This document shows, one piece after another, positions 6,148-35,671 of a DNA stretch of 35,671 nucleotides. Position 1 is the first letter of the stretch; each line of letters opens with the position of its first letter. The DNA is from Myxococcales bacterium (GTDB lineage Bacteria > Myxococcota_A > Polyangia > Polyangiales > Polyangiaceae), in assembly GCA_903642325.1 (NCBI GenBank), contig CAHJWM010000048.1, forward strand, positions 1 to 35,671. Reading direction: 5' to 3'. A model generated the notes under the pieces. That model made no database searches and was not told the origin of the DNA. It saw only the letters and a program-made list of their open reading frames with translations. The position numbers and the translations under genes were made by a program.

Positions 6148-8838
6148 ATGGGCGCAAAACTGTTCACGTCTCGAGCTGACTTGGCCGGGGTGCCTACCGC
6201 GGCCTCGGGCGTGAACAACCGGCCGCGTTCCTTAGGTCGGCTGTACGAAGCGGCGGCGCTGCTTCTGTTCACTGGTGCGGCATTCCTATTCTTGGCCCTG
6301 GCGACGGCCAAGTTCGATGCGCTCGATGCCCAGGTTCACGGGGCTAATTGGGTTGGTCCGGCGGGCGGCAGTGTAGCCGGTGTCCTGATTCAAGGCTTTG
6401 GCATGGTGGCCTGGCTGCTACCCCTCGAGATCGCGCTGTGCGGGGCGCCCCTGTTCCGCGGTCAGCGGCCGAGGGCCTTGGGGCTGCGCGTGGCGGGCGA
6501 CTTGGTCGTGGCCATCGTGCTAGCCGCGTTGGTTCAGGTTGCCCTGCCCGAAGCAGTGGTTTTTGGCAACGCGCCCGCCGGTGGCAACGTGGGCCTGCTG
6601 TTCGGCGAGCTGATGCGCGATGGCTTCTCCACGCTCGGCTCGTTCTTGCTCGCGAGCACGGTCGTGGGGCTGATCTTGATCGGCCGCAGCAGCTTCTCGT
6701 TCATCGCCGGCTGTCAACGAACGCTCGAGCTACTGCGCTTGTTTGCTCTGCGCCTGGAGGCGTTGCTTGGGCGGGTCGGCAAGGCCTGGGCGGAGGCCCG
6801 CCGGCTGCGTGGCGAGCAGCGTCTCGCGGAGCGGAAGGCGGCCATCCCCCGTATCGAGACGGATAGCGACGACGCTCGGATCTTACTCGCGCTGGACGAC
6901 GACTGCGATTGGATCCCAATGGAGCAGACGGGCACGCCTCCGCTAGCGATCTCCGAGGCCCTGCGACGAGGACGTTCGATACCCATCGACGGCGGCCGCG
7001 GCCTAGCCCTGGCGGATTTCAGTATCGACTTGGGCCCGGATGAGCCAGATGCGCCAGCCGGCGTAGGAGCGCCGCCGCTCGTGGCGGCTCCGGTGGCGAG
7101 CACCCACTGCAATGAAGAGAGAGTGCTCGAGCGCGCGCTTTCGGGCTCGCCCTCCCCGCCGCCGTCGGCAACGGAAGCCGGTGTCGATGCGAGCTTGCCG
7201 AAATCACTGGCCCCGGCGTCCGCAGCCGCGGCAATCCAGGCGCCGACCGAACCGCGCATCATCGACACCAAGCCCGCGCTCGAGGTCGAACGCGTCGTCG
7301 TCGTCAAGAGGACGCCGCGCAGAGGCACGTTCCAGCTACCGTCGTACGAAATTTTGCAACCCGCTGCGCTCGACCTCAGCGTCTTGGACCGCGATAAAAT
7401 CTTGCAACACGCAAGCCGTCTGGAGAAGACGCTCGCGGACTACGGCGTGCTCGCAAAAGTCGAGGAGATCCACCCGGGCCCGACCGTGACGACCTACGAA
7501 GTGTCGTGTGAGGCGGGCACTAAAGTTAGCAAGGTCGCGAGCTTGGCCGACGATTTGGCGCTCGGGCTCTCCCGAAAAGTTCGCATCATTGCGCCGATTC
7601 CCGGGAAAAACCGCATCGGTTTCGAGCTCCCGAACGACGAACGGATAGCGGTCAACTTGCGCGAGCTGATCGAGGACCAGCGCTTCGAAAAGCTCGCGGA
7701 AAAGGCGCCCTTACCGGTCGTGCTCGGTCGCGACATCGTGGGCGCGCCATTTTACGCAGACCTGGCGTCGATGCCGCACGTGATCGTCGCGGGCGCTACC
7801 GGCGCCGGCAAGAGCGTCGGCTTGAACGTGATGCTGTCGAGCCTTTTATTCAAGCGCACCCCGGACGAGCTACGGCTGTTGATGATCGATCCCAAGGTCG
7901 TCGAGCTCGCGCCCTTCGACGGCATTCCGCACATGCTCTTGCCGGTGGTGACCGACATGAAGCAAGCCGCCACGGCGCTGCGCTGGGCGGTGGACGAGAT
8001 GGAGCGCCGCTATCAACTTTTTGCCAATGCGGGCACCAAAAACATCACGACCTACAACGGTTGGGTGGCAAAAATCGCCGCTGGCGAGCTCCCGCCGCCG
8101 GAAGTGAAAACGGTGGAGGCCATCGACGCCAATGGCCAAACCGTGCTGGTCCCGGCGGCCAAGGAAGGCTTCGATGGCCACAACTTGCCCCAGAAATTGC
8201 CGTACATCGTGATCGTGGTCGACGAGTTCGCGGACTTGATGATGCAGCAGGGAAAGGAAGTGGAAGTCTCTGTCGCGCGCCTCGCGCAAAAAGCGCGTGC
8301 GGCAGGCATGCACGTCGTACTGGCAACGCAGCGCCCCAGCGTGGACGTGATCACGGGCATGATCAAAGCCAACTTCCCGTCGCGCATCGGCTTCCGAGTC
8401 GCGCAAAAAGTGGATAGCCGCACGATCTTGGACGAGCAGGGTGCGGAGCTATTGCTCGGCCGCGGCGACATGTTGGTCAAGCTGAACGGCGCGAACGATA
8501 CGCAGCGCGTGCAATGCCCGTTCGTGAGTGAAGAAGAAGTGAGTCTGCTCACCGATCACCTTCGAACCCAGGGCACTCCCGAGTACAACGAAGCGATTTT
8601 GCTCTGTCCGGACGAGGACGGCGCTGACGAAGAGGCCGATGAAGTGGTCGACCCGCGCTTCGATGAAGCCGTGCGCATCGTGGCCGAGACCCAACGGTGC
8701 TCGACTTCTTGGCTGCAACGGAAAATGACGGTGGGTTACAATCGGGCGGCCAAGATTGTCGAGCTCATGGAAAAGCGGGGCATGGTAGGGCCGCCCAATG
8801 GGGCCAAGGATCGCGAGATCCTCGTGCATGCTCACTGA
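6148..8838 (+). CDS. ftsK: DNA translocase FtsK/SpoIIIE family
   Basis: 896 residues. Four membrane helices lie within residues about 30-185 and anchor the protein at the division site. Residues 185-400 are a charged and Pro/Ala-rich linker. The motor follows: Walker A GATGAGKS at 549-556, Walker B VIVVDEFADL with D692-E693, then the conserved QRPSVDVITGMIKANFPSRI region. The C-terminal gamma domain (about 830-893, RFDEAVRIVAETQRCS through NRAAKIVELMEKRGMVG) is the winged helix that reads KOPS sequences and contacts XerD in known homologues. The protein pumps chromosome ends apart during septation and dimer resolution. A segment before Walker B (about 650-680) is slightly longer than in E. 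coli. The ATG at 6148 has only a weak ribosome site. Confidence 0.95.
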   Translation: MGAKLFTSRADLAGVPTAASGVNNRPRSLGRLYEAAALLLFTGAAFLFLALATAKFDALDAQVHGANWVGPAGGSVAGVLIQGFGMVAWLLPLEIALCGAPLFRGQRPRALGLRVAGDLVVAIVLAALVQVALPEAVVFGNAPAGGNVGLLFGELMRDGFSTLGSFLLASTVVGLILIGRSSFSFIAGCQRTLELLRLFALRLEALLGRVGKAWAEARRLRGEQRLAERKAAIPRIETDSDDARILLALDDDCDWIPMEQTGTPPLAISEALRRGRSIPIDGGRGLALADFSIDLGPDEPDAPAGVGAPPLVAAPVASTHCNEERVLERALSGSPSPPPSATEAGVDASLPKSLAPASAAAAIQAPTEPRIIDTKPALEVERVVVVKRTPRRGTFQLPSYEILQPAALDLSVLDRDKILQHASRLEKTLADYGVLAKVEEIHPGPTVTTYEVSCEAGTKVSKVASLADDLALGLSRKVRIIAPIPGKNRIGFELPNDERIAVNLRELIEDQRFEKLAEKAPLPVVLGRDIVGAPFYADLASMPHVIVAGATGAGKSVGLNVMLSSLLFKRTPDELRLLMIDPKVVELAPFDGIPHMLLPVVTDMKQAATALRWAVDEMERRYQLFANAGTKNITTYNGWVAKIAAGELPPPEVKTVEAIDANGQTVLVPAAKEGFDGHNLPQKLPYIVIVVDEFADLMMQQGKEVEVSVARLAQKARAAGMHVVLATQRPSVDVITGMIKANFPSRIGFRVAQKVDSRTILDEQGAELLLGRGDMLVKLNGANDTQRVQCPFVSEEEVSLLTDHLRTQGTPEYNEAILLCPDEDGADEEADEVVDPRFDEAVRIVAETQRCSTSWLQRKMTVGYNRAAKIVELMEKRGMVGPPNGAKDREILVHAH

Positions 8839-17651: not shown

Positions 17652-18190
17652 ATGCGGACTGCGGTGACAACGTCGACTCAGGTACGGTTTGCGGCGCTTC
17701 TTGCGGCGGCAGGTTTGGGGTTGTCGTGGGGCTGTGATGATCAAGGCAGCCAGCGCAGGGGCGGCGGCGCGATTCCGGACCTTAGCGCGGGCTCGGGTGC
17801 GGTCGCCCCGCTTGGAGGCAGCCCGGATGCTGGCGCGGGCGGGGCGGCTGACGGGGAGCAGATCGTGCAAGTGGTGCGCGGCTTACGCGATCATCAAATG
17901 GGTATGTCGGCAGTGTCATCAAAGCCCGCCCGTGCATGACGCGCCACTGCCTCTGGTGACCTACGCCGATACGCAGGGCCAATGCCTAGGGTCTTCGGTC
18001 AAGAAGACGGTTTGGCAGGAGATGCGCATTGATCGCAAACCGCTACATGCCTTTCATCGGGCCCCCATCTTGCCGCCGCCGATGCAGGCGCTCACGGACG
18101 AACAGCGTTCGACCCTGCTCAGCTGGTTGGCTCAAGGTGCGCGTGATCAAGGCGGACAGGGTTGCCCGCGAGCTTGCGATTGGAGCGCAG
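17652..18190 (+). pseudogene. Frameshifted cytochrome-c-like lipoprotein
   Basis: From the ATG at 17652 the frame encodes a lipoprotein signal ([15 protein letters not shown]) and a Gly/Ala/Ser-rich linker, then stops at 17939. The +1-shifted frame over 17889-18190 continues with a heme motif CRQCH (nt 17905-17919) and [19 protein letters not shown], then [23 protein letters not shown]. That matches small myxobacterial lipoproteins with a CxxCH motif and an APMPLVTY-like segment. So the signal part and heme part are in different frames, with the break near 17890-17905. The heme frame has no stop before recA and runs into it in frame. A TATACT hexamer at 17633 is a possible -10. The cause could be decay or a sequencing error. 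Confidence 0.6.
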
Positions 18191-18339
18191 CGCCGGCCAC
18201 CGGCAAAAGCGATGCCCCGTCTTCGAGTCGCGGGCGCCGCCACCAGCCAGGGCAATTCTCGGTGCTCAGCCGCGTTCCGTGCCGTATATCTGCACGAACG
18301 GCTCTCCCGTCAGACTATGTCCGCGCGCAGGCTCGGGCG

Positions 18340-18368
18340 TTGACATCTGAACAACCGAGCAGTAGAAC
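18340..18368 (+). promoter_or_regulatory. recA promoter with possible LexA-type box
   Basis: TTGACA at 18340-18345 is a perfect -35. After exactly 17 bp comes TAGAAC at 18363-18368, a fair -10. The leader to the recA ATG at 18406 would be about 30 nt. The 17-bp spacer (TCTGAACAACCGAGCAG, 18346-18362) carries CTGAAC and resembles the reverse complement of the myxobacterial LexA site as I recall it (CTRHAMRYBYGTTCAGS), matching 14 of 17 positions. A repressor there would block polymerase. The hexamers are seen; SOS control is inferred. Confidence 0.6.
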
Positions 18369-18395
18369 CACTCACAGGTCGAGCCAACCCGTATT

Positions 18396-18400
18396 GAGGA
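18396..18400 (+). promoter_or_regulatory. recA ribosome binding site
   Basis: GAGGA at 18396-18400 lies 5 bp before the ATG at 18406. It settles the recA start, although the same open frame reaches upstream to 17689 with no stop. Confidence 0.65.
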
Positions 18401-18405
18401 CGCCC

Positions 18406-19599
18406 ATGGACGAAAAGCCGAAAACCAAAGCTCTCGAACTCGCAATTGCCAGTGTCCAAAAGGAGTTTGGCGATGGCGCCATCATGCGTTTGAAAGACGG
18501 TGAGAAGATCGGCGGTGATGTTCAGGTCGTGCCCACGGGCTCCATGGGTCTCGACATTGCGCTTGGCATTGGCGGCTATCCTCGCGGCCGCATCGTCGAG
18601 ATTTACGGGCCTGAGTCGAGCGGTAAAACTACGCTCACCCTCCACGCGATCGCGAATGTGCAACGCCAGGGTGGCGTCGCCGCGTTCATCGACGCGGAAC
18701 ATGCCCTAGACATCACCTACGCCAAGAAGCTCGGCGTCAAGACCGACGAACTGCTCATCAGTCAGCCCGATTTCGGTGAACAAGCGTTGGAAATTACTGA
18801 CATGCTGGTGCGCTCCGGTGCCGTTGACTTGATCGTGATCGACTCCGTTGCCGCGCTCGTGCCCAAGGCTGAAATCGAAGGTGACATGGGTGATTCGCAC
18901 GTTGGCCTCCAGGCCCGCTTGATGAGCCAGGCCTTGCGCAAGGTCACGGGCTCCGTGGCGCGTTCCCATTGCATCATCATGTTCACCAACCAGATCCGCA
19001 TGAAGATCGGCGTCATGTTCGGTAGCCCGGAGACGACTACCGGCGGCAATGCGCTGAAATTCTACGCTTCGCAGCGCTTGGATATCCGCCGCATCGGCGC
19101 CATCAAGGAGAGCCTTAGTCCGGGCAAGGACCCGGTAGCGGTCGGCAATCGCACGCGCGTGAAGGTGGTCAAGAACAAGCTTGCTGCACCATTCCGCGAG
19201 GTCGAGTTCGACATCCTATACGGTCAGGGCATCAGCCGTTCGGGGGAGATCATCGATCTTGCCTCGGATCTGAACATCATTCAGAAGAGCGGCGCGTGGT
19301 TTTCTGTCGATGGTGAACGCATTGGCCAGGGGCGTGACAACGCTCGCACCTATCTGGAAACCCACCCGGAGCTCATGGCTCGTATCGAGCAAAAGCTGCT
19401 CCTGCACCACGGCATTATCGGGGGTGGCGGAGCCGCCGCGCCGAATGTGAATGCACCCGGCTCTGCTGGGGCGCCTGTCTCTGCCAGCTCCGCGGGGGTT
19501 CCTGGTAAGCCGCCGGGAAAAGGTGAAGCGCCTGTCCTTGCCACCGCTTCCGATCCAAGTGGGGCCAACGCCAAACGCGGCAACGTTCGCCCGAGCTGA
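18406..19599 (+). CDS. recA: Recombinase RecA
   Basis: 397 residues. The core is standard: P-loop GPESSGKT at 68-75, Walker [11 protein letters not shown], loop L1 around [20 protein letters not shown], and [28 protein letters not shown] before loop L2. It coats single-stranded DNA, drives strand exchange and acts as co-protease for LexA self-cleavage. The N-terminus ([22 protein letters not shown]) is normal for the family. The C-terminal 50 residues are Gly/Ala/Pro/Ser-rich with several Lys/Arg, unlike the acidic autoregulatory tail of E. coli RecA. The start at 18406 is fixed by GAGGA and by the promoter. The open frame upstream belongs to a broken heme lipoprotein, not to RecA. The next gene encodes an SprT-like protease. 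Confidence 0.97.
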
Positions 19600-21102: not shown

Positions 21103-21867
21103 TCAGAATTCGATCGCCAACCCCAATACCCATGTGTTCGCACCGACGTTCAAGCGTTTGGAGGAGCCGAATGCGTCGAGCTCGCTGCCGTACCACTCCG
21201 CGAAGATGTAGCTGTTGTTGATGCCGATGCTATTGTCGGCGTCACGCGCGGTTTGCTGGTCCAAAATGTCCATTAAGAACATGCCGCCGACCGCGTATTG
21301 AGGGCCGTATGAGGCGCCTTTGCCGGCCACACCATTCTGGTTGGCGGTGCTGCCGCCGTCGCTCGCCCACCACAGCGCGTAGCCGGCGCCGACCTTGGCG
21401 TAGGGCACGAGCGGCACGCCGAGCTCACGCATGAAGACGTCCGCGCGTAGCACGGCGACGAGGTAGAAGGGCATGACCGCGAGCGAGGTCTTTTCGTCGG
21501 ATAGGACGTCGGGTTGGGCGGTGAGGCGCGCGTAGCCGGATGCGCGCGTGTAGCCCCAGCCGAGACCGGGCCCGAGCGTACCCAAGTGCGGGATGCGCAG
21601 CACTTGCCAATCCCCTTCCAGGCCCACCATGTAGCGTTTGCCGTCGCCGAAGGTGTCTTTGAACGGCGTGCCAGACACGGAGTGATCCACTCGCGGCGTG
21701 TAGGGGCCAAAACGAGCTTCGAACATGCCGTATTGCGCGGACTCGCCATGATTGCGGTTGCGCGCTCCGTACGCGCCAAACTCGTCGGTGCCTTGTGCCC
21801 CCGCGTTTGGTGCCACCCCGAGCAAAGCCGCCGCTAGCGGCAGTGGGCACAGAGCGAATCGTTTCAC
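21103..21867 (-). CDS. Outer-membrane beta-barrel protein, MXAN_2562-like
   Basis: 254 residues with a signal peptide cleaved after about residue 24 (LPLAAALLGVAPNAGA). The mature protein alternates hydrophobic and aromatic residues (GYTRASGYARLT, YLVAVLRADVFMREL, YAKVGAGYALWWAS) and ends with WVLGLAIEF, a C-terminal Phe typical of barrels sorted by BamA. The FGPYTPRVD...TPFKDTFGDGKRY region looks like the MXAN_2562 outer-membrane family; this is from memory. The GTG start at 21867 overlaps the stop of the MYXO-CTERM gene as GTGA, so the two are translationally coupled. In Myxococcus the same pair of families is adjacent (MXAN_2561 and MXAN_2562), which supports the call. Confidence 0.78.
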   Translation of the reverse strand: MKRFALCPLPLAAALLGVAPNAGAQGTDEFGAYGARNRNHGESAQYGMFEARFGPYTPRVDHSVSGTPFKDTFGDGKRYMVGLEGDWQVLRIPHLGTLGPGLGWGYTRASGYARLTAQPDVLSDEKTSLAVMPFYLVAVLRADVFMRELGVPLVPYAKVGAGYALWWASDGGSTANQNGVAGKGASYGPQYAVGGMFLMDILDQQTARDADNSIGINNSYIFAEWYGSELDAFGSSKRLNVGANTWVLGLAIEF

Positions 21868-23069
21868 GCGGCTCGCCTCCGACGGAGGAGCAGGCAGGAA
21901 GCAACGCCGAGCAGTCCGATCCAGGTCAGCGGCTCGCGCCGAGATGAAAAGCTGCAGAAGCCGCCGCCGGCTTTACCGCCCGCGTCGGTGTAGGCCTCGA
22001 AGAAGCCGGTGATGGGCTGCGGCACCGCGCACTTGACCGTCGACAATACGCCGAGGTTTTCATACGAATCAGTGGTGGCGACGGCGACGTTGTACGCCAC
22101 GCCGTCGATTAAGCCCGTGGCGTTGCCGCCCTTCGATTGGGGCCCTGCGCTTCCACATTGGGTGTTTGGGTCCGGGTGGGCTCCGGCGATCAAGGCCGTG
22201 GAGCCCGAACACGCCGGGATGACGCCGGCGTCATCCGGATAGACGCCGGCATCTTTGGCGGCGGCGTCGCCCGGGGGCGGGTCGCAGTAGAAGTTATAAC
22301 CGTTGATCGTGGTGTCGCCGGTGGCCGTGGTGTAGTCGAAGCTTACCGGCAATAAGTTCTCACCGATGCCAACGCGGACCCGGTCGGGCGGCACCGGCGC
22401 CGATAGCTTGTAGGTCGCTTTCCAGGTGACGAAGGTGCCTACGACGTTGTTGCCAGCGTCGACCAGAAAGAAATAAACGTTGATGTTCTGATAGGCGGTG
22501 GTCGAGGTCTTGTCGATGCAGGCGTCGTCGTCCGACGCGCTGGCGGTGCTAGTGCCGCCGCTGCCGCCCGTGGTTCCACTGCTGTCTTCGCCGGCGGCGC
22601 CATTCGTGCTCGTGCCCCCCGTGCCGGCCGTCGCCCCGCTTGTGTTCCCCGAAGAAGTACCAGAAGCCAGGGTCCTCAAATAAAGGATCTCTTTGACCGG
22701 CACTCGGATCGTCGGAGGGTTGATTTGCGTCGCCGCGATCCCTTCGCCGATTTGATTACAGTTGCTGATGTTGGGGTTGATTCGATTGTCCTGCACCTCG
22801 CAGGCGTTCCCAGCCCACACTTGCAGCGTTAGACCGGTAAACCCGGACAGCGCGACCGAGAAGTCGATCGCGCCGTTTTGGTGGCAGTCCTCGTAATTGA
22901 TTTGATCATTGCGCAGGTTACGCCCGCGGTTCGGACGCGTGGCTGAGATCCCCGTGGTGGGCAGCGTGACGGCTGTTACCCCGAGCGTTTGCGCGTGGGC
23001 TGGCCTCACGATGCTCGACATGAAGCCGGCAATGGCTAGGAAGGCGAACACTCGAATGAGGGTGAACAT
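21864..23069 (-). CDS. MYXO-CTERM-anchored surface protein, MXAN_2561-like
   Basis: 401 residues. A signal peptide (IRVFAFLAIAGFMSSIVRPAHA) ends near residue 26. The body has beta-rich regions and about ten cysteines. A Gly/Ser/Thr linker at about 136-178 (GTSSGNTSGATAGTGGTSTNG and on) interrupts it. The C-terminus is a sorting tail: GGGFCSFSSRREP, a hydrophobic helix (WIGLLGVASCLLL) and RRRRAA. This is the MYXO-CTERM plan, in which a cysteine (C372 here) precedes the helix and the tail is processed for cell-surface attachment. The ATG at 23069 has AAAGGAG about 9 bp upstream; a longer frame to 23699 is antisense to the next gene and rejected. It is coupled to the outer-membrane protein gene. 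Confidence 0.82.
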   Translation of the reverse strand: MFTLIRVFAFLAIAGFMSSIVRPAHAQTLGVTAVTLPTTGISATRPNRGRNLRNDQINYEDCHQNGAIDFSVALSGFTGLTLQVWAGNACEVQDNRINPNISNCNQIGEGIAATQINPPTIRVPVKEILYLRTLASGTSSGNTSGATAGTGGTSTNGAAGEDSSGTTGGSGGTSTASASDDDACIDKTSTTAYQNINVYFFLVDAGNNVVGTFVTWKATYKLSAPVPPDRVRVGIGENLLPVSFDYTTATGDTTINGYNFYCDPPPGDAAAKDAGVYPDDAGVIPACSGSTALIAGAHPDPNTQCGSAGPQSKGGNATGLIDGVAYNVAVATTDSYENLGVLSTVKCAVPQPITGFFEAYTDAGGKAGGGFCSFSSRREPLTWIGLLGVASCLLLRRRRAA

Positions 23070-23173
23070 CTCGCGGGCTCCTTTGAGCACATGGCGTGCC
23101 ACGCTGCAATTGTGGGGCAGAACTCGGGTTAAATGCTGGCGCGTATTCGGGCGGCGCGCCAAGCTGTCGGAAG

Positions 23174-23198
23174 CGCTCCGGAGCGTGTCAAACTGACA
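23174..23198 (+). promoter_or_regulatory. Two adjacent palindromes in a divergent promoter region
   Basis: CGCTCCGGAGCG at 23174-23185 is a perfect 12-bp palindrome. TGTCA-AAC-TGACA at 23186-23198 is an inverted repeat that follows without a gap and ends 3 bp before the start at 23202. TTGACA on the leftward strand (23191-23186) overlaps it. This looks like an operator controlling the pseudokinase gene, the MYXO-CTERM gene, or both. Confidence 0.45.
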
Positions 23199-23201
23199 AA
23201 G

Positions 23202-25586
23202 ATGTTCGCGAACGGATCGCTCGTCGGCGCTCGCTTCCGGGTGCTGCAGAATGTCGGGGCGGACCTCGGCGCTGCCGCCGTAGCCCGGGCGCTCGAGCTG
23301 CAAAGCGGTCAGGAGCGCTGGCTGGTTCAGGTCGATGTGACGGCCAGCGAATCGCAGGTCAGCCTCGCCCTCGAGCAGCAGGCAAGATTTGCGGTGGGTG
23401 TCCCCGGCTTGGCTCGGCCGCTCGCGTCCGGGGTCGATGCAGGAACGGCATTCGTGGTGTTCGCGGCTCCGCCCGGTGGCAGCGTCGCCGAGGCACGCGC
23501 TGAGCCCTGGCCCGCGGCGCGCGTCGCGGGATTGGCGTCGCGCATTGCGGAAGCCCTCGCGCCGCTCCACGACCAGGGGATCGCTTACGGTTGTCTGCGG
23601 CCGGAGCTGGTAGGCGAGGGCGCGGGCGGTGAGGTCTTGTTCGGGTTCGGCGTAGCGGCGCTGGCGACCTCGTTCGGCGCTCCCGGCGAGGCCAGTCAAT
23701 TGCTCGCGCCGGAGTACCGTGCCCCCGAGCTGAGAGCGGCCTTGTTACCGCCCACGCCCGCGAGCGATGTGTTTGCTCTGGGCACGCTCTTGCGGCAGCT
23801 GATGGTTCCCCCCGACCGCGAGCTCGAGGCCTGTCTCGCTCGTGCGCAAGCCTTGGATCCGCGGCAACGCCCGCGTGAGGTACGGGCCTTCGCCGCGGAA
23901 TTTGCGCGGCTCGCACTGCGGATGCCGGACCTAGAGGTCGCTCCGCCCCACGTCGTGCTGGAGCCTACGCCGATGTCCGAGGGACCTGGGCCCCCACCGG
24001 CGCTAACCGCGCGGGCGCCCGCGATCGTGCGTCCGATGTACGTGCCGCCCCCCTTCGTCGTGCCGCCCCCGCCTAGCCGCTCGAGCCTGCTGGCGGTTTG
24101 GTTGCTGGTAGGGGCGGGCTTGGTGTTGATGGTGGGTGGGGTGGTCTACGCTTCATTCTATGCCGCGCGACGGGCGGCCGTGCTCGTCAGGACAGCGTCT
24201 GGCCCTGCGCTTCATGGGCCGGTCATTCCGAAGCTCGGCATTGCGCCTCCCGCCGCCGCTGTGGTCGCGCCGACACCGGAGGCATCTACGGGCGCGGAAG
24301 CCGAGACTCCGCCAAACCGCCCGCCGCGTTCACACCCGCCCCTGGTCGCGCCCGGCGTGGGCAGTGCGAGCTTTCCGGAAGAGGCGGGCGCGGTGATGCC
24401 CATACTGGGCAGCGAGCCCATTTGGGGCACGCGCGCGGCGCCGCTCACGTGGGTGCTTTTTGGTGACTTGGATTGCCCTTACACACGGCGTGCTTGGCGC
24501 GCCTTGGAGGCCGTCAAGCTGAGCTTTGGCGACGACTTACGGATCGTCTTCAGGCATCGACCGCTGCGCGAGCATCCCAATGCGTTCGCGGCGGCCAGCG
24601 TGCTCGCCGGGTTGCAGCGGCGCCGCGGGCCACTCGCGTTCTTTACCGTGTTACACCGCATCTCGAGGGACGAAGCGAGCCTGACGGCCGAGCACTTGCA
24701 GGAGGTGCTGGTGGCCTCGGGCTACGCTGACTTGAAACCCGCCGAGCTTGCCACGCAGGGCGCGTCCGCGGTGCTCGCCGACCTACAACTTGCTGGGCAA
24801 TTCGCCGTAAAATCTACGCCGTTTTCGTTTCTCAACGGCCAACCCATCGATGGCGAGCGCTCGCCGGCTGAGCTCGAGTCGCTGCTCCTCGAAGAGCGTC
24901 GCTCCGCGAGCTTCAGCCTGGCGGCGGGCGTGACGGCGCGCGCATTGTACGGCGCGCGGGCGAGCACCAATCTGATCGGCGTGGGGGAGTTGGCCGACAC
25001 CCGAGCCTGCGTGCCCGTCGGCGGGTCGCCGAGTCGTGGTCCCAGCGACGCGTTGCTGACCGTGGTCGAGTTTTCCGACTTCGAGTGCCCTTTCTGCAAG
25101 CGCGCCGAGCCGACCCTGCATGCTCTGCTCGAGCGCTATCCGAAGGACCTGCGCCTAGTCTGGAAAGACTTTCCCTTGGCCCAGCATAAAAGCGCGCGTC
25201 TGCTGGCAAACCTCGCCGCGGATGCGTATGCGCGTGGCTCGAACACGGCATTCTGGGGGTTGCACGACGCACTCTTCACGCTTTCGGAGACGCCGGACGA
25301 TGGCGCGCTGGGCGAGCTCGCCAGTAAGGCAGGCCTGGACGGGGCGCTGTTGCTCAATTCGGCGAGAGCAGGCGCTCACGACCCTAAAATTCAGGTCGAT
25401 ATGGCACTCGCGCAGAAACTGAGCGTGAAGGGCACCCCTACATTTTTCGTGAACGGCCGCCGCGTGCAGGGGGTGCTGCCGCCCGACCAGTTCGAGGCCT
25501 TGATCCGAGCCGAGCTGGCTTTTGCGCGCCGCATCGTGGCCCGCGGCGTGGCGCGCCAGGACGTGTACGCACTGACGTGCGACTGA
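23202..25586 (+). CDS. Membrane pseudokinase fused to two DsbA-like thioredoxin domains
   Basis: 794 residues from the ATG at 23202, where the kinase-like fold begins (GSLVGARFRVL); 23133 is an alternative start. Residues 5-240 resemble a Hanks Ser/Thr kinase, but the catalytic motifs are gone: the VAIK Lys position reads LVQVDV, HRDLKPEN reads YGCLRPE (129-135), and DFG reads FGFG (147-150). RAPEL and the subdomain IX Asp (ASDVFALG) remain. Residues 245-293 are Pro-rich, 296-320 one membrane helix. Outside are two DsbA-like domains: the first has C425-P-Y-T (second Cys lost) with cis-Pro KSTPFSF, the second has C629-P-F-C632 with cis-Pro KGTPTFF. This suggests a one-pass sensor or scaffold with a thiol-disulfide domain. 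It lies next to a SurA-like chaperone gene. Confidence 0.85.
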   Translation: MFANGSLVGARFRVLQNVGADLGAAAVARALELQSGQERWLVQVDVTASESQVSLALEQQARFAVGVPGLARPLASGVDAGTAFVVFAAPPGGSVAEARAEPWPAARVAGLASRIAEALAPLHDQGIAYGCLRPELVGEGAGGEVLFGFGVAALATSFGAPGEASQLLAPEYRAPELRAALLPPTPASDVFALGTLLRQLMVPPDRELEACLARAQALDPRQRPREVRAFAAEFARLALRMPDLEVAPPHVVLEPTPMSEGPGPPPALTARAPAIVRPMYVPPPFVVPPPPSRSSLLAVWLLVGAGLVLMVGGVVYASFYAARRAAVLVRTASGPALHGPVIPKLGIAPPAAAVVAPTPEASTGAEAETPPNRPPRSHPPLVAPGVGSASFPEEAGAVMPILGSEPIWGTRAAPLTWVLFGDLDCPYTRRAWRALEAVKLSFGDDLRIVFRHRPLREHPNAFAAASVLAGLQRRRGPLAFFTVLHRISRDEASLTAEHLQEVLVASGYADLKPAELATQGASAVLADLQLAGQFAVKSTPFSFLNGQPIDGERSPAELESLLLEERRSASFSLAAGVTARALYGARASTNLIGVGELADTRACVPVGGSPSRGPSDALLTVVEFSDFECPFCKRAEPTLHALLERYPKDLRLVWKDFPLAQHKSARLLANLAADAYARGSNTAFWGLHDALFTLSETPDDGALGELASKAGLDGALLLNSARAGAHDPKIQVDMALAQKLSVKGTPTFFVNGRRVQGVLPPDQFEALIRAELAFARRIVARGVARQDVYALTCD

Positions 25587-25694: not shown

Positions 25695-26663
25695 CTAAAG
25701 CCGCACTTCCACATGATTGCGGCGGCGTAGGCCGTCGAGCCAGGTGCGGCGCGCTTGGCTCATCTTATCCATGTACACTCGGTCACCCAGCTCCCGCCGG
25801 GCTTCCTCGAAGGGCGGAAGTTGCGACGCGTCGCGCGAGTTCACACGCAAGATCACGTAGTCGCCGTCTAGGGCCATGGGCGGCGAAGACTCGCCGACCT
25901 CTAGCCCCGTGGCCGCCCGCGCGATGCCCGGGGGAAGATCGGCGAGCTTCGTCTCCGGCAAGACACCGCCTTTTTCGCGAGTCGGGCGGTCTTGAGAAAA
26001 CTCCCGCGCGAGCCGCGCAAAGTCTTGAGTGCGCGCCGCATCGGCTACGCGCTCGGCGAGGGCACGGCCGGAATTATCCCCGCCGGCGGGGATGCGGATC
26101 AAGGCGACGCGTAGGCCGAGGCGCTGACGTTCTTCGAGCACCAGCTTGTGGTACGCGAGCCTCAAGTCCTCGTCCGTCACGCGAATGCGGCCTTGCAGGC
26201 GAACATTGACGAGCTTGGCCTGCAGCAACTGACGCCGCAGCTCGTCTCGATACTGAACTTCATTGACGCCAGTGCGCGCGGCTTCGGCGAGGAGCTTCTG
26301 CTGCGTGAGCTGATTTTGCGCGGCCACGCGCGTAATGGCTTCGTCGATCTCTTTGCTGGTAACGGTGATCTTGGCCTGGATCGCCGCGCGCTCTTCCAGT
26401 TCTTCATCGACGATTTTGTCCAGCACGCCCTTGTACACCTGCGAGATGGCCGCGCTGCGTTGTGCGCCGGGCTGCACGGTCTGCGTGACTTGGACCAAGA
26501 AGGGTTGGGCGCGGGCCTTCAAATCACTGAGCAGAATCGCGCGGTCGCCAATCACCGCGACCACACGCTCGACCACCGTGGCGCGCGCGGGGGACGCCCA
26601 TAGCCCGGCCGCACCGAGCAACACGGTCGAAAAAAGCGCCGACCGGCGAGCGAAAAACTGCAT
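25695..26663 (-). CDS. SurA-like periplasmic chaperone/peptidyl-prolyl isomerase
   Basis: 322 residues from the ATG at 26663; a GTG at 26675 would add four residues. The signal peptide is FFARRSALFSTVLLGAAGLWASPARA. The N-terminal chaperone domain (about 30-160) starts ERVVAVIGDRAILLSDLKARA, the classic SurA opening, and continues with long charged helices (ITVTSKEIDEAITRVAAQNQLTQQK). A parvulin rotamase domain follows (about 170-275: LRVALIRIPAGG, ARTQDFARLAREFSQD, GGVLPETKLADLPPGIARA). It escorts outer-membrane proteins to the Bam complex and isomerises prolines. Upstream by 30 bp lies a lipoprotein gene on the same strand, probably the same operon. Only one parvulin domain is present, against two in E. 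coli SurA. Confidence 0.9.
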   Translation of the reverse strand: MQFFARRSALFSTVLLGAAGLWASPARATVVERVVAVIGDRAILLSDLKARAQPFLVQVTQTVQPGAQRSAAISQVYKGVLDKIVDEELEERAAIQAKITVTSKEIDEAITRVAAQNQLTQQKLLAEAARTGVNEVQYRDELRRQLLQAKLVNVRLQGRIRVTDEDLRLAYHKLVLEERQRLGLRVALIRIPAGGDNSGRALAERVADAARTQDFARLAREFSQDRPTREKGGVLPETKLADLPPGIARAATGLEVGESSPPMALDGDYVILRVNSRDASQLPPFEEARRELGDRVYMDKMSQARRTWLDGLRRRNHVEVRL

Positions 26664-26693
26664 CAGGGGGCCCACAGCCGGGTCCTAGCACGC

Positions 26694-34569: not shown

Positions 34570-35671
34570 TCAGTCGCCGAAGCGAATGTTTTCCGAGGAC
34601 CGCGGCGACACGCGCTGACGCGCCATCGACTGCGGATACTCCGAAACTAGGCCTGCTCGGGGGACGTCGTTCAAAATTCGCTCCAAATCGCGCGCGGAGG
34701 AGGGGCGCTCCGCGGCGCGCTTGCGCAGGCAAAGCATCACGGCCGCGTCTAAGCCCTCCGGGATCTCGAGCTCGGGTCGAAGCACGCGCATGGAGCGTGG
34801 AATTTCGCGCTGATGGAGCTCGAGCAGCTCCCGTCGATTGCGACCGCGGATCGGCAGCTCGCCCGTCAGCGCCTCGTACATCAGCACCCCGAACGCGTAT
34901 AGATCAGTGCGCGGATCGACGGGCGCGCCGATACACTGCTCTGGTGACATGTACTCGGGCGTACCCAAGGTATAGCCGTCCTGGGTCAGGGACTCGGACT
35001 CGCCCAGCTTGCTCATGCCGAAATCCAGCACTTTGATGCCGTTTTCGTCACAGATGAAAATGTTTCCGGGCTTCAAATCCCGATGCACGATGCCGAGCCC
35101 GTGCGCCGCGGTCAGCGCATGGCAGACCTGGATGAACATGGGTATGCCGAAGCCGGGCGCGACGGGGCCCTGCGCTTTCAAGCGCTGGGCCAAGCTCATC
35201 CCGTGCAAAAGCTCCATCACCACATAAATGGAGCCGTCCGGCATTTGACCGAGATCGAGGGTGCGGACCACGTTTGGCTGCTCGATCGAGCCTTGTACGC
35301 GCGCCTCGCGGCGCAGTCGCGCGATCTCGGAAGCATCGACGGCAGCCGCGCCGCGCAGCACCTTGATCGCGACCTTCGCGCCGATGCCCATGTGCTCTGC
35401 CGCGTATACCGCGCCGATGCCGCCAGAGCCGATGCGACGCAGAATCCGATATTTCCCGCCCAAGGTTTCGCCCGCCAAATCCCCCGCGGCTTGGTTGAAT
35501 TGACCACGTGCCTCGAGCCCTCGCTCGAGCGCAGCGATGCGGTTTCTTTCGAACACGCGTGACGCCCGCTCCTGCTCGACCTTTTCGGTCAGGCGCCCGA
35601 TGGCGGCGCCGAGCACGGCGCCGGCCAGCGTGGCGATGCCCGCCGCCAGCTCGCTGCCCGCGGCGAGGACC
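34570..35671 (-). CDS. Membrane-anchored Ser/Thr protein kinase, 5' end outside window
   Basis: The frame is open from the right edge to 34570, at least 366 residues, and the start lies beyond the window. The visible N-terminal part is a hydrophobic Ala/Gly-rich helix (ELAAGIATLAGAVLGAAIG), then a charged coiled-coil-like stretch (RLTEKVEQERASRVFERNR), then a full kinase domain: GSGGIGAVY glycine loop, VAIKVL lysine, IVHRDLKPGNIFI catalytic loop, VLDFGMSKL DFG motif, GTPEYMSPEQ. All catalytic residues are present. The tail after the domain is short and Arg/Ser-rich (SMARQRVSPRSSENIRFGD). The catalytic domain lies C-terminal to the membrane helix, the reverse of many PknB-type kinases. The substrate is unknown. 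Confidence 0.9.
   Translation of the reverse strand, partial: VLAAGSELAAGIATLAGAVLGAAIGRLTEKVEQERASRVFERNRIAALERGLEARGQFNQAAGDLAGETLGGKYRILRRIGSGGIGAVYAAEHMGIGAKVAIKVLRGAAAVDASEIARLRREARVQGSIEQPNVVRTLDLGQMPDGSIYVVMELLHGMSLAQRLKAQGPVAPGFGIPMFIQVCHALTAAHGLGIVHRDLKPGNIFICDENGIKVLDFGMSKLGESESLTQDGYTLGTPEYMSPEQCIGAPVDPRTDLYAFGVLMYEALTGELPIRGRNRRELLELHQREIPRSMRVLRPELEIPEGLDAAVMLCLRKRAAERPSSARDLERILNDVPRAGLVSEYPQSMARQRVSPRSSENIRFGD

Follow-up and report, generated by a model that had tools for sequence, protein, structure and literature searches.

A conserved bacterial protein family that joins a Hanks kinase fold lacking its catalytic motifs to DsbA-like domains through one membrane helix

Introduction

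To our knowledge, it is an open question how the kinases of the cytoplasm might learn the state of periplasmic disulfide formation. The question is raised by one gene (the target) in a 35,671-nucleotide stretch of DNA, analysed here as a whole and referred to as the window. The product had been predicted to join a kinase fold devoid of the Lys, HRD and DFG motifs, through one membrane helix, to a redox pair of thioredoxin-type domains, and to pass redox state to the cytoplasm or to scaffold a kinase complex. Is this architecture real, and what might it do? The open-licence papers searched include none that describes a fusion of DsbA with a kinase or pseudokinase, and bacterial pseudokinases are described as largely unexplored experimentally in the abstract of a review (PMC12599244). 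The parts are of known kinds; their order, head-helix-monothiol DsbA(-DsbA), came up in none of these papers and has so far been seen in one taxonomic family.

Results

Layout of the gene and protein

The gene lies in a frame of 817 open codons (23133..25586, +), in which an in-frame ATG further upstream, at 23133, is a possible alternative start; the start at 23202 was preferred because the heads of aligned orthologues share their N-termini at that point. The layout is given in Table 1. The Pfam models DSBA (PF01323) and Thioredoxin_4 (PF13462) each matched two stretches of the protein above the gathering cut-off (E 5e-29 and 3e-30, 101.8 and 106 bits, respectively). No NCBIfam model matched the 794-aa protein at its cut-off, and neither Pfam nor NCBIfam yielded a whole-protein model at cut-off for this order of domains. 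The one membrane helix of the original prediction was recovered. Since this single helix follows an N-terminal kinase fold, the head would be cytoplasmic and the C-terminal part periplasmic.

Table 1. Features of the target gene and its neighbours, in window coordinates
Feature	Residues	Coordinates	Strand	Basis
Whole gene: pseudokinase, TM helix, DsbA-like D1 (CPYT), DsbA-like D2 (CPFC)	1-794 (794 aa)	23202..25586	+	
Pseudokinase head, helix G region deleted	1-240	23202..23921	+	Head profile, Pfam, AF2 model
HRD position = YGC, catalytic Asp gone	Y129-G130-C131	23586..23594	+	Alignment
DFG position = GFG, metal-binding Asp gone	Gly148 (Asp site)	23643..23651	+	Alignment
Pro-rich linker, probably cytoplasmic	241-295	23922..24086	+	Sequence; widely variable length among orthologues
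Single transmembrane helix	296-319	24087..24158	+	Hydropathy peak; hydrophobic segment at the equivalent place in 19 aligned orthologues
Pro/Ala-rich linker, probably periplasmic	320-398	24159..24395	+	Sequence
D1, DsbA-like, one active-site Cys; CPYT at 24474-24485	399-598 (CPYT 425-428)	24396..24995	+	AF2 model, fold match, motif count
Extra linker Cys603 (D1-D2 linker)	603	25008..25010	+	Kept in 15/15 D2-bearing orthologues
D2, dithiol DsbA-like; CPFC at 25086-25097	604-790 (CPFC 629-632)	25011..25571	+	Fold match, motif count
C-terminal Cys793	793	25578..25580	+	Kept in 15/15 D2-bearing orthologues
Convergent neighbour, SurA_N + PpiC-type peptidyl-prolyl isomerase, probably in periplasmic folding		25695..26675	-	Pfam; near target in 19/19
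Divergent neighbour F, secreted-looking, 10 Cys, C-terminal Cys-helix-Arg tail		21864..23069	-	Weak match to MXAN_2561 MYXO-CTERM-anchored family
Neighbour E, MXAN_2562 family outer-membrane beta-barrel		21103..21867	-	NCBIfam NF040596, E 5.6e-71, above cut-off

The head keeps a kinase fold without its catalytic motifs

Pkinase (PF00069) matched residues 102-201 of the whole protein at E 9e-4 (19.1 bits) and the window head alone at 22.0 bits, both below the gathering cut-off of 31.7. Scans with single heads returned Pkinase at E<=0.1 in 9 of 14 heads (best 3.6e-8); the full-length proteins of G023 and G028 did not match Pkinase at E<=0.01. The profile of all 14 orthologous heads, searched against the PDB, matched StkP (9ruk) at E 1.5e-22 over profile positions 1-260 of 272, PknA at E 1.7e-20 and, in the C-lobe part, PknB at E about 4e-15. 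The head thus has a Hanks-type (Pkinase) fold that is profile-detectable over nearly the entire domain. The AlphaFold2 model of the head (pLDDT 75.8, pTM 0.79) was nearest to PknG (Z 20.8, rmsd 3.6, 232 aligned) and PknB (Z 20.6); it supports the kinase fold and does not prove it, because the alignment used for folding held 12 real kinases.

The motifs of the window head were read from an alignment with 12 kinases that retain the Lys, the HRD/HGD Asp and the DFG Asp. The ATP Lys was missing, with no Lys anywhere in residues 1-240, and the Asp residues of HRD and DFG were replaced as listed in Table 1; APE and SDVFALG were retained. Indeed, all 14 heads lacked a Lys in the aligned VAIK region, the HRD Asp and the DFG Asp, and read H/Y/F-Gly-x at the HRD position, so the kinase fold without Lys, HRD and DFG that had been predicted is borne out, as is the conservation of the loss. 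Judged by these motifs the head is not an active Hanks kinase and, because they are absent in 14/14, it cannot transfer phosphate by the usual chemistry.

The head is maintained and not decaying, since its dN/dS was well below 1, as under purifying selection: 0.23 (G070/G020), 0.33 (G070/G069) and 0.21 (G066/G029) in three close pairs, and 0.49 between G076 and G034, which are strongly diverged. Values for D1 in these four pairs were 0.20, 0.27, 0.29 and 0.37, respectively, those of the three close pairs being similar to the head values.

One DsbA-like domain has lost its second cysteine

The predicted pair of a CPYT domain, with the second Cys lost, and a CPFC domain was confirmed, and both had DsbA-like folds by model and fold match. 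The AlphaFold2 model of the D1-D2 tail had a mean pLDDT of 93.1 against a pTM of 0.57, so that the folds of D1 and D2 are sure but their mutual placement is not. D1 was nearest to ScsC (6mhh; Z 22.9, rmsd 1.6, 168 aligned) and D2 to BdbD (3eu3; Z 22.6, rmsd 1.9, 176 aligned); these chains have no kinase head, and the window D1, unlike them, lacks the second Cys. The TP cis-Pro dipeptide was present in both domains. By its CxxC and cis-Pro loop D2 qualifies as a dithiol DsbA oxidoreductase, and D1, without CxxC, does not.

This difference was conserved. Among the 19 orthologues described below, D1 carried CxxT in 16 and CxxC in none, and its active-site Cys was gone, with the cis-Pro retained, in three (G075, G003 and G007); D2 carried CxxC in all 15 orthologues that possess it. 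Tandem DsbA proteins with two or three DSBA domains are known (PMC2757866), and they share the D1-D2 order of the window tail at 28-37% identity. They differ from the window family at the D1 position, which read CxxC in 37/37 ordinary tandem DsbA segments from named genomes, and at the Cys603 column, which held Cys in 0/37. These 37 segments are not independent, many overlapping or sharing genes (four more rows were excluded for their stop codons), and 34 of them end short of the Cys793 column. Among the 80 of 309 relatives listed in the named-genome scan, none matched the window head region, all matches starting at query residue 325 or later. The idea of a selenoprotein was rejected, the in-frame TGA at G000:C25 being an ordinary stop after a DsbA frame.

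Orthologues and modularity

Orthologues were sought in 59 genomes of the family and order and in 108 genomes of the family, where the loci beside the PpiC gene were read. Such loci were readable at least partly in 93 of the 108 family genomes, several stretches being short or perhaps not the true counterpart; the other 15 were left out (nine without a PpiC match, six at contig ends). Nineteen orthologues were obtained, the window protein included, with 27-37% identity to that protein, from nine genera of one family of soil bacteria, probably the Polyangiaceae. A profile scan of 94 such loci (two being repeats of G020 and the window) added no orthologue. Within the order and outside the family, 0/47 genomes matched a D2-less orthologue query at E<=1e-25, which argues only weakly for absence there, as G034 and G071, both known orthologues, also escaped that search.

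Fourteen genomes, spread over the nine genera, carried the head-bearing, fused form. The head was missing in five orthologues (G003, G002, G007 and G001 of the window's genus, and G071), and D2 in four (G072, G066, G029 and G023), which consist of head-helix-D1 only and have no CxxC; headless G071 and D2-less G072 belong to one genus. Only the helix and D1 were universal (19/19). The D1 tree requires at least three changes for the head, two for D2 and two for the D1 Cys, counts that are rough because 8 of 16 inner branches have less than 80% support. A separate kinase gene upstream of the headless forms was rejected in the two that were checked, where there is no room: in G003 divergent F ends at 7876 and is followed at 7911 by the opening of the headless frame, and the corresponding positions in G002 are 1418 and 1581.

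The architecture is thus that of a genuine conserved family and no assembly accident. The original prediction was to be abandoned if homologues proved to be simple DsbA proteins and the N-terminal part lacked a kinase fold, or if the fusion was unique to one assembly; what was found is a kinase-fold head fused in 14 genomes of nine genera. The periplasmic redox pair did not hold as the core of the family, four orthologues having no D2 and hence no CxxC. Nor can the passing of redox state to the cytoplasm be the role of every member, because five lack the head and four lack D2.

Neighbouring genes

Neighbours E and F, the target and the PpiC gene occurred together at 14/19 loci. Elsewhere, the short contig of G002 carried F and PpiC and the 4.5-kb contig of G076 carried PpiC; in G066, G029 and G023 PpiC was present, with no recognised E or F within the stretch read. 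F matched NCBIfam NF045522 at E 2.8e-9 (36.9 bits, below the cut-off of 150), and its tail follows the Cys-helix-Arg pattern reported for MYXO-CTERM (PMC11980579). No paper on MXAN_2559 to MXAN_2563 was found in the open-licence literature. E and F do not depend on the target, because both occur at target-less loci, of which 8/14 hold both F and PpiC, including two of the window's genus, G005 and G006; for the same reason the idea that F is an obligate client of the target was rejected.

The gap between target and PpiC was at most 254 nt in 11/19 orthologues (108 nt in the window). Gaps of 993 nt in G003, 1041 nt in G007 and 1739 nt in G023 held long opposite-strand frames (L126, L128 and L146) and not the adjoining kinase described below. 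Farther off in the window, a RecA frame (17689-19599, +) has about 240 open codons ahead of the RecA domain; residues 63-160 of this part match DNA upstream of recA in other genomes, as separate pieces, so that the part could be either a distinct gene or a true extension.

An intact kinase adjoins the target in two genera

At 5/19 loci an intact membrane kinase is encoded directly downstream of the target, on its strand, between target and PpiC: G070, G069 and G020 of one genus, and G028 and G065 of another (for example L118:10294-11949, +; the others are L119, L120, L121 and L123). These genes have 551-609 codons, retain VALK, HRDLKP and DFG, and encode hydrophobic segments, four by the count of a simple hydropathy threshold. 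Their first possible start codon lies 9-36 nt past the target stop, and the copies have 68-94% identity to that of G070. The Stk1/PknB class model was matched at E 6.4e-69, below its cut-off; the other compared loci matched only the kinase domain of the G070 gene.

The window itself has no kinase gene directly next to the target. A Hanks kinase with HRDLKPGN and DFG is encoded 9 kb away (34573-35616, -).

As an independent line, the adjacency hints that dead and live kinase act together, and it lends some support to the predicted scaffolding of a kinase complex, in five genomes of two genera. It is only suggestive because it represents about one evolutionary event, in kinase-rich genomes.

Discussion

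Comparison with known systems

Receptor-type Hanks kinases such as StkP, PknB and PknA carry a C-terminal outside domain made of PASTA. The window protein resembles them in having an N-terminal Hanks fold followed by one membrane helix; the window family differs from them in lacking all three catalytic motifs (14/14) and in having a DsbA-like outside domain. Bacterial pseudokinases that have lost all three motifs are known: ActPs1-3, GLW, CP1 and, in M. tuberculosis, MviN (PMC12599244). They share the loss of the ATP Lys, HRD and DFG with the window head; ActPs3 and GLW also have a helix C-terminal to the head, and about 60% of ActPs1 have lost the helix-G region, as has the window head (PMC12599244). 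The window family differs in its H/Y/F-Gly-x at the HRD position, ActPs1-3, GLW and CP1 being compared here by the text of the review alone; that main text contains no word beginning "DsbA", "thioredoxin" or "myxo" (PMC12599244). A likeness of working rather than of descent may be seen in the plant pair PDI9-IRE1, where a disulfide-isomerase domain acts through its Cys on membrane kinase signalling (PMC11137178). It differs in being two proteins of the eukaryotic ER, of which IRE1 is not a dead kinase, and would be a precedent for contact between a disulfide isomerase and a membrane kinase, not proof for the window protein.

Possible roles

Building on the architecture, the loss and retention of motifs, selection on the head, synteny and the kinase adjacency in two genera, we propose tentatively, and with somewhat less than even confidence, that the protein captures thiols as a single-pass inner-membrane receptor or adaptor, with its pseudokinase acting as a scaffold for docking or allostery. 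By established thiol chemistry, a DsbA-type Cys that lacks its resolving partner is unable to free itself from a mixed disulfide. Because D1 keeps the attacking Cys and has Thr for the resolving one, it could not by itself resolve a mixed disulfide formed on it, which should then persist for long. D1 might therefore capture a client or a small thiol, and D2, where present, could resolve or reset it through its CxxC; in the D2-less forms a separate DsbA protein could do so. A class of thioredoxin-fold proteins in which another residue stands in for the second Cys is known (PMC2757866). On the cytoplasmic side, the head would dock an active Hanks kinase, and the occupancy of D1 might be reported to kinase signalling or be positioned by it; for two genera, the kinase encoded just downstream would be the likely partner. 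Counting against this proposal are the presence of that neighbour in only two of nine genera and the consideration that, in genomes with many kinases, one such neighbour is not very unlikely. Moreover, neither signalling nor covalent capture can be universal, because 5/19 orthologues have no head and 3/19 no D1 Cys.

The same parts could instead form a membrane-tethered disulfide oxidase or isomerase for envelope proteins, in which D2 does the chemistry, D1 binds clients, the head anchors or positions and nothing is signalled. Such an enzyme would suit the CxxC of D2 in 15/15, the PpiC chaperone near the target in 19/19 with Cys-rich F divergent, and a head whose presence changes at least three times on the D1 tree while helix-D1-D2 persists in headless forms. 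However, that head is under purifying selection with its fold motifs retained, F and PpiC also occur without the target, and the four head-helix-D1 forms fit poorly with a plain oxidoreductase because they have no CxxC. We regard an enzyme of this kind as possible, though on balance we doubt it. Greater doubt attaches to a true redox receptor, in which the redox state of D1/D2 alters the conformation of the head and is passed to a kinase. The domain order is receptor-like, a kinase gene lies next door in two genera, Cys603 and Cys793 of the D2-bearing forms could make a switch with the CxxC, and in plants a PDI modulates a membrane kinase via active-site Cys (PMC11137178); yet the helix is flanked by long, variable Pro/Ala linkers, which make rigid transmission unlikely unless it works by dimerisation, and head or D2 is often missing (5/19 and 4/19). 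On this evidence a redox receptor is clearly unlikely.

The loss of the D1 Cys in G075, G003 and G007, with the cis-Pro kept, would also suit a D1 that is a non-redox binding domain on its way to losing the Cys, in a protein that is a plain tether between cytoplasm and periplasm. This is very improbable, given that the Cys is kept in 16/19 despite only 27-37% identity to the window protein and that the three losses amount at the fewest to two changes on the tree. The weak single-sequence Pkinase score could be taken to mean that the fusion arose by chance or in assembly, or that the kinase is decaying; 14 fused orthologues in nine genera and a dN/dS well below 1 already refute this, and its probability is negligible.

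Carried further, thiol capture by D1 and docking by the head could make the protein a bacterial counterpart of PDI-IRE1, with a periplasmic Dsb capture domain and a dead Hanks kinase gating a live membrane kinase. We consider this extension rather unlikely; if true, trapped misfolded or reduced envelope proteins would be reported to Ser/Thr phosphorylation. In either form the family may link protein-disulfide chemistry to kinase signalling. Questions of disulfide reporting and of pseudokinase function are testable here because one family offers natural dissections (head + D1, D1 + D2, and head + D1 + D2), to which are added variants of D1 with or without its Cys and loci with or without a neighbouring kinase gene.

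Other DsbA-rich genes were met in these searches. Of 18 query matches in the window's genome, 13, the gene's own included, cover DsbA domains, and two further loci there hold three adjacent DsbA-like matches each (G000:C14:70456-72333 and C16:16464-18275). Triple-DsbA genes of Sorangium, Polyangium and relatives (L028, L029, L031-L036, L043, L045 and L050) have an opposite-strand kinase gene upstream, with two kinase domains in several.
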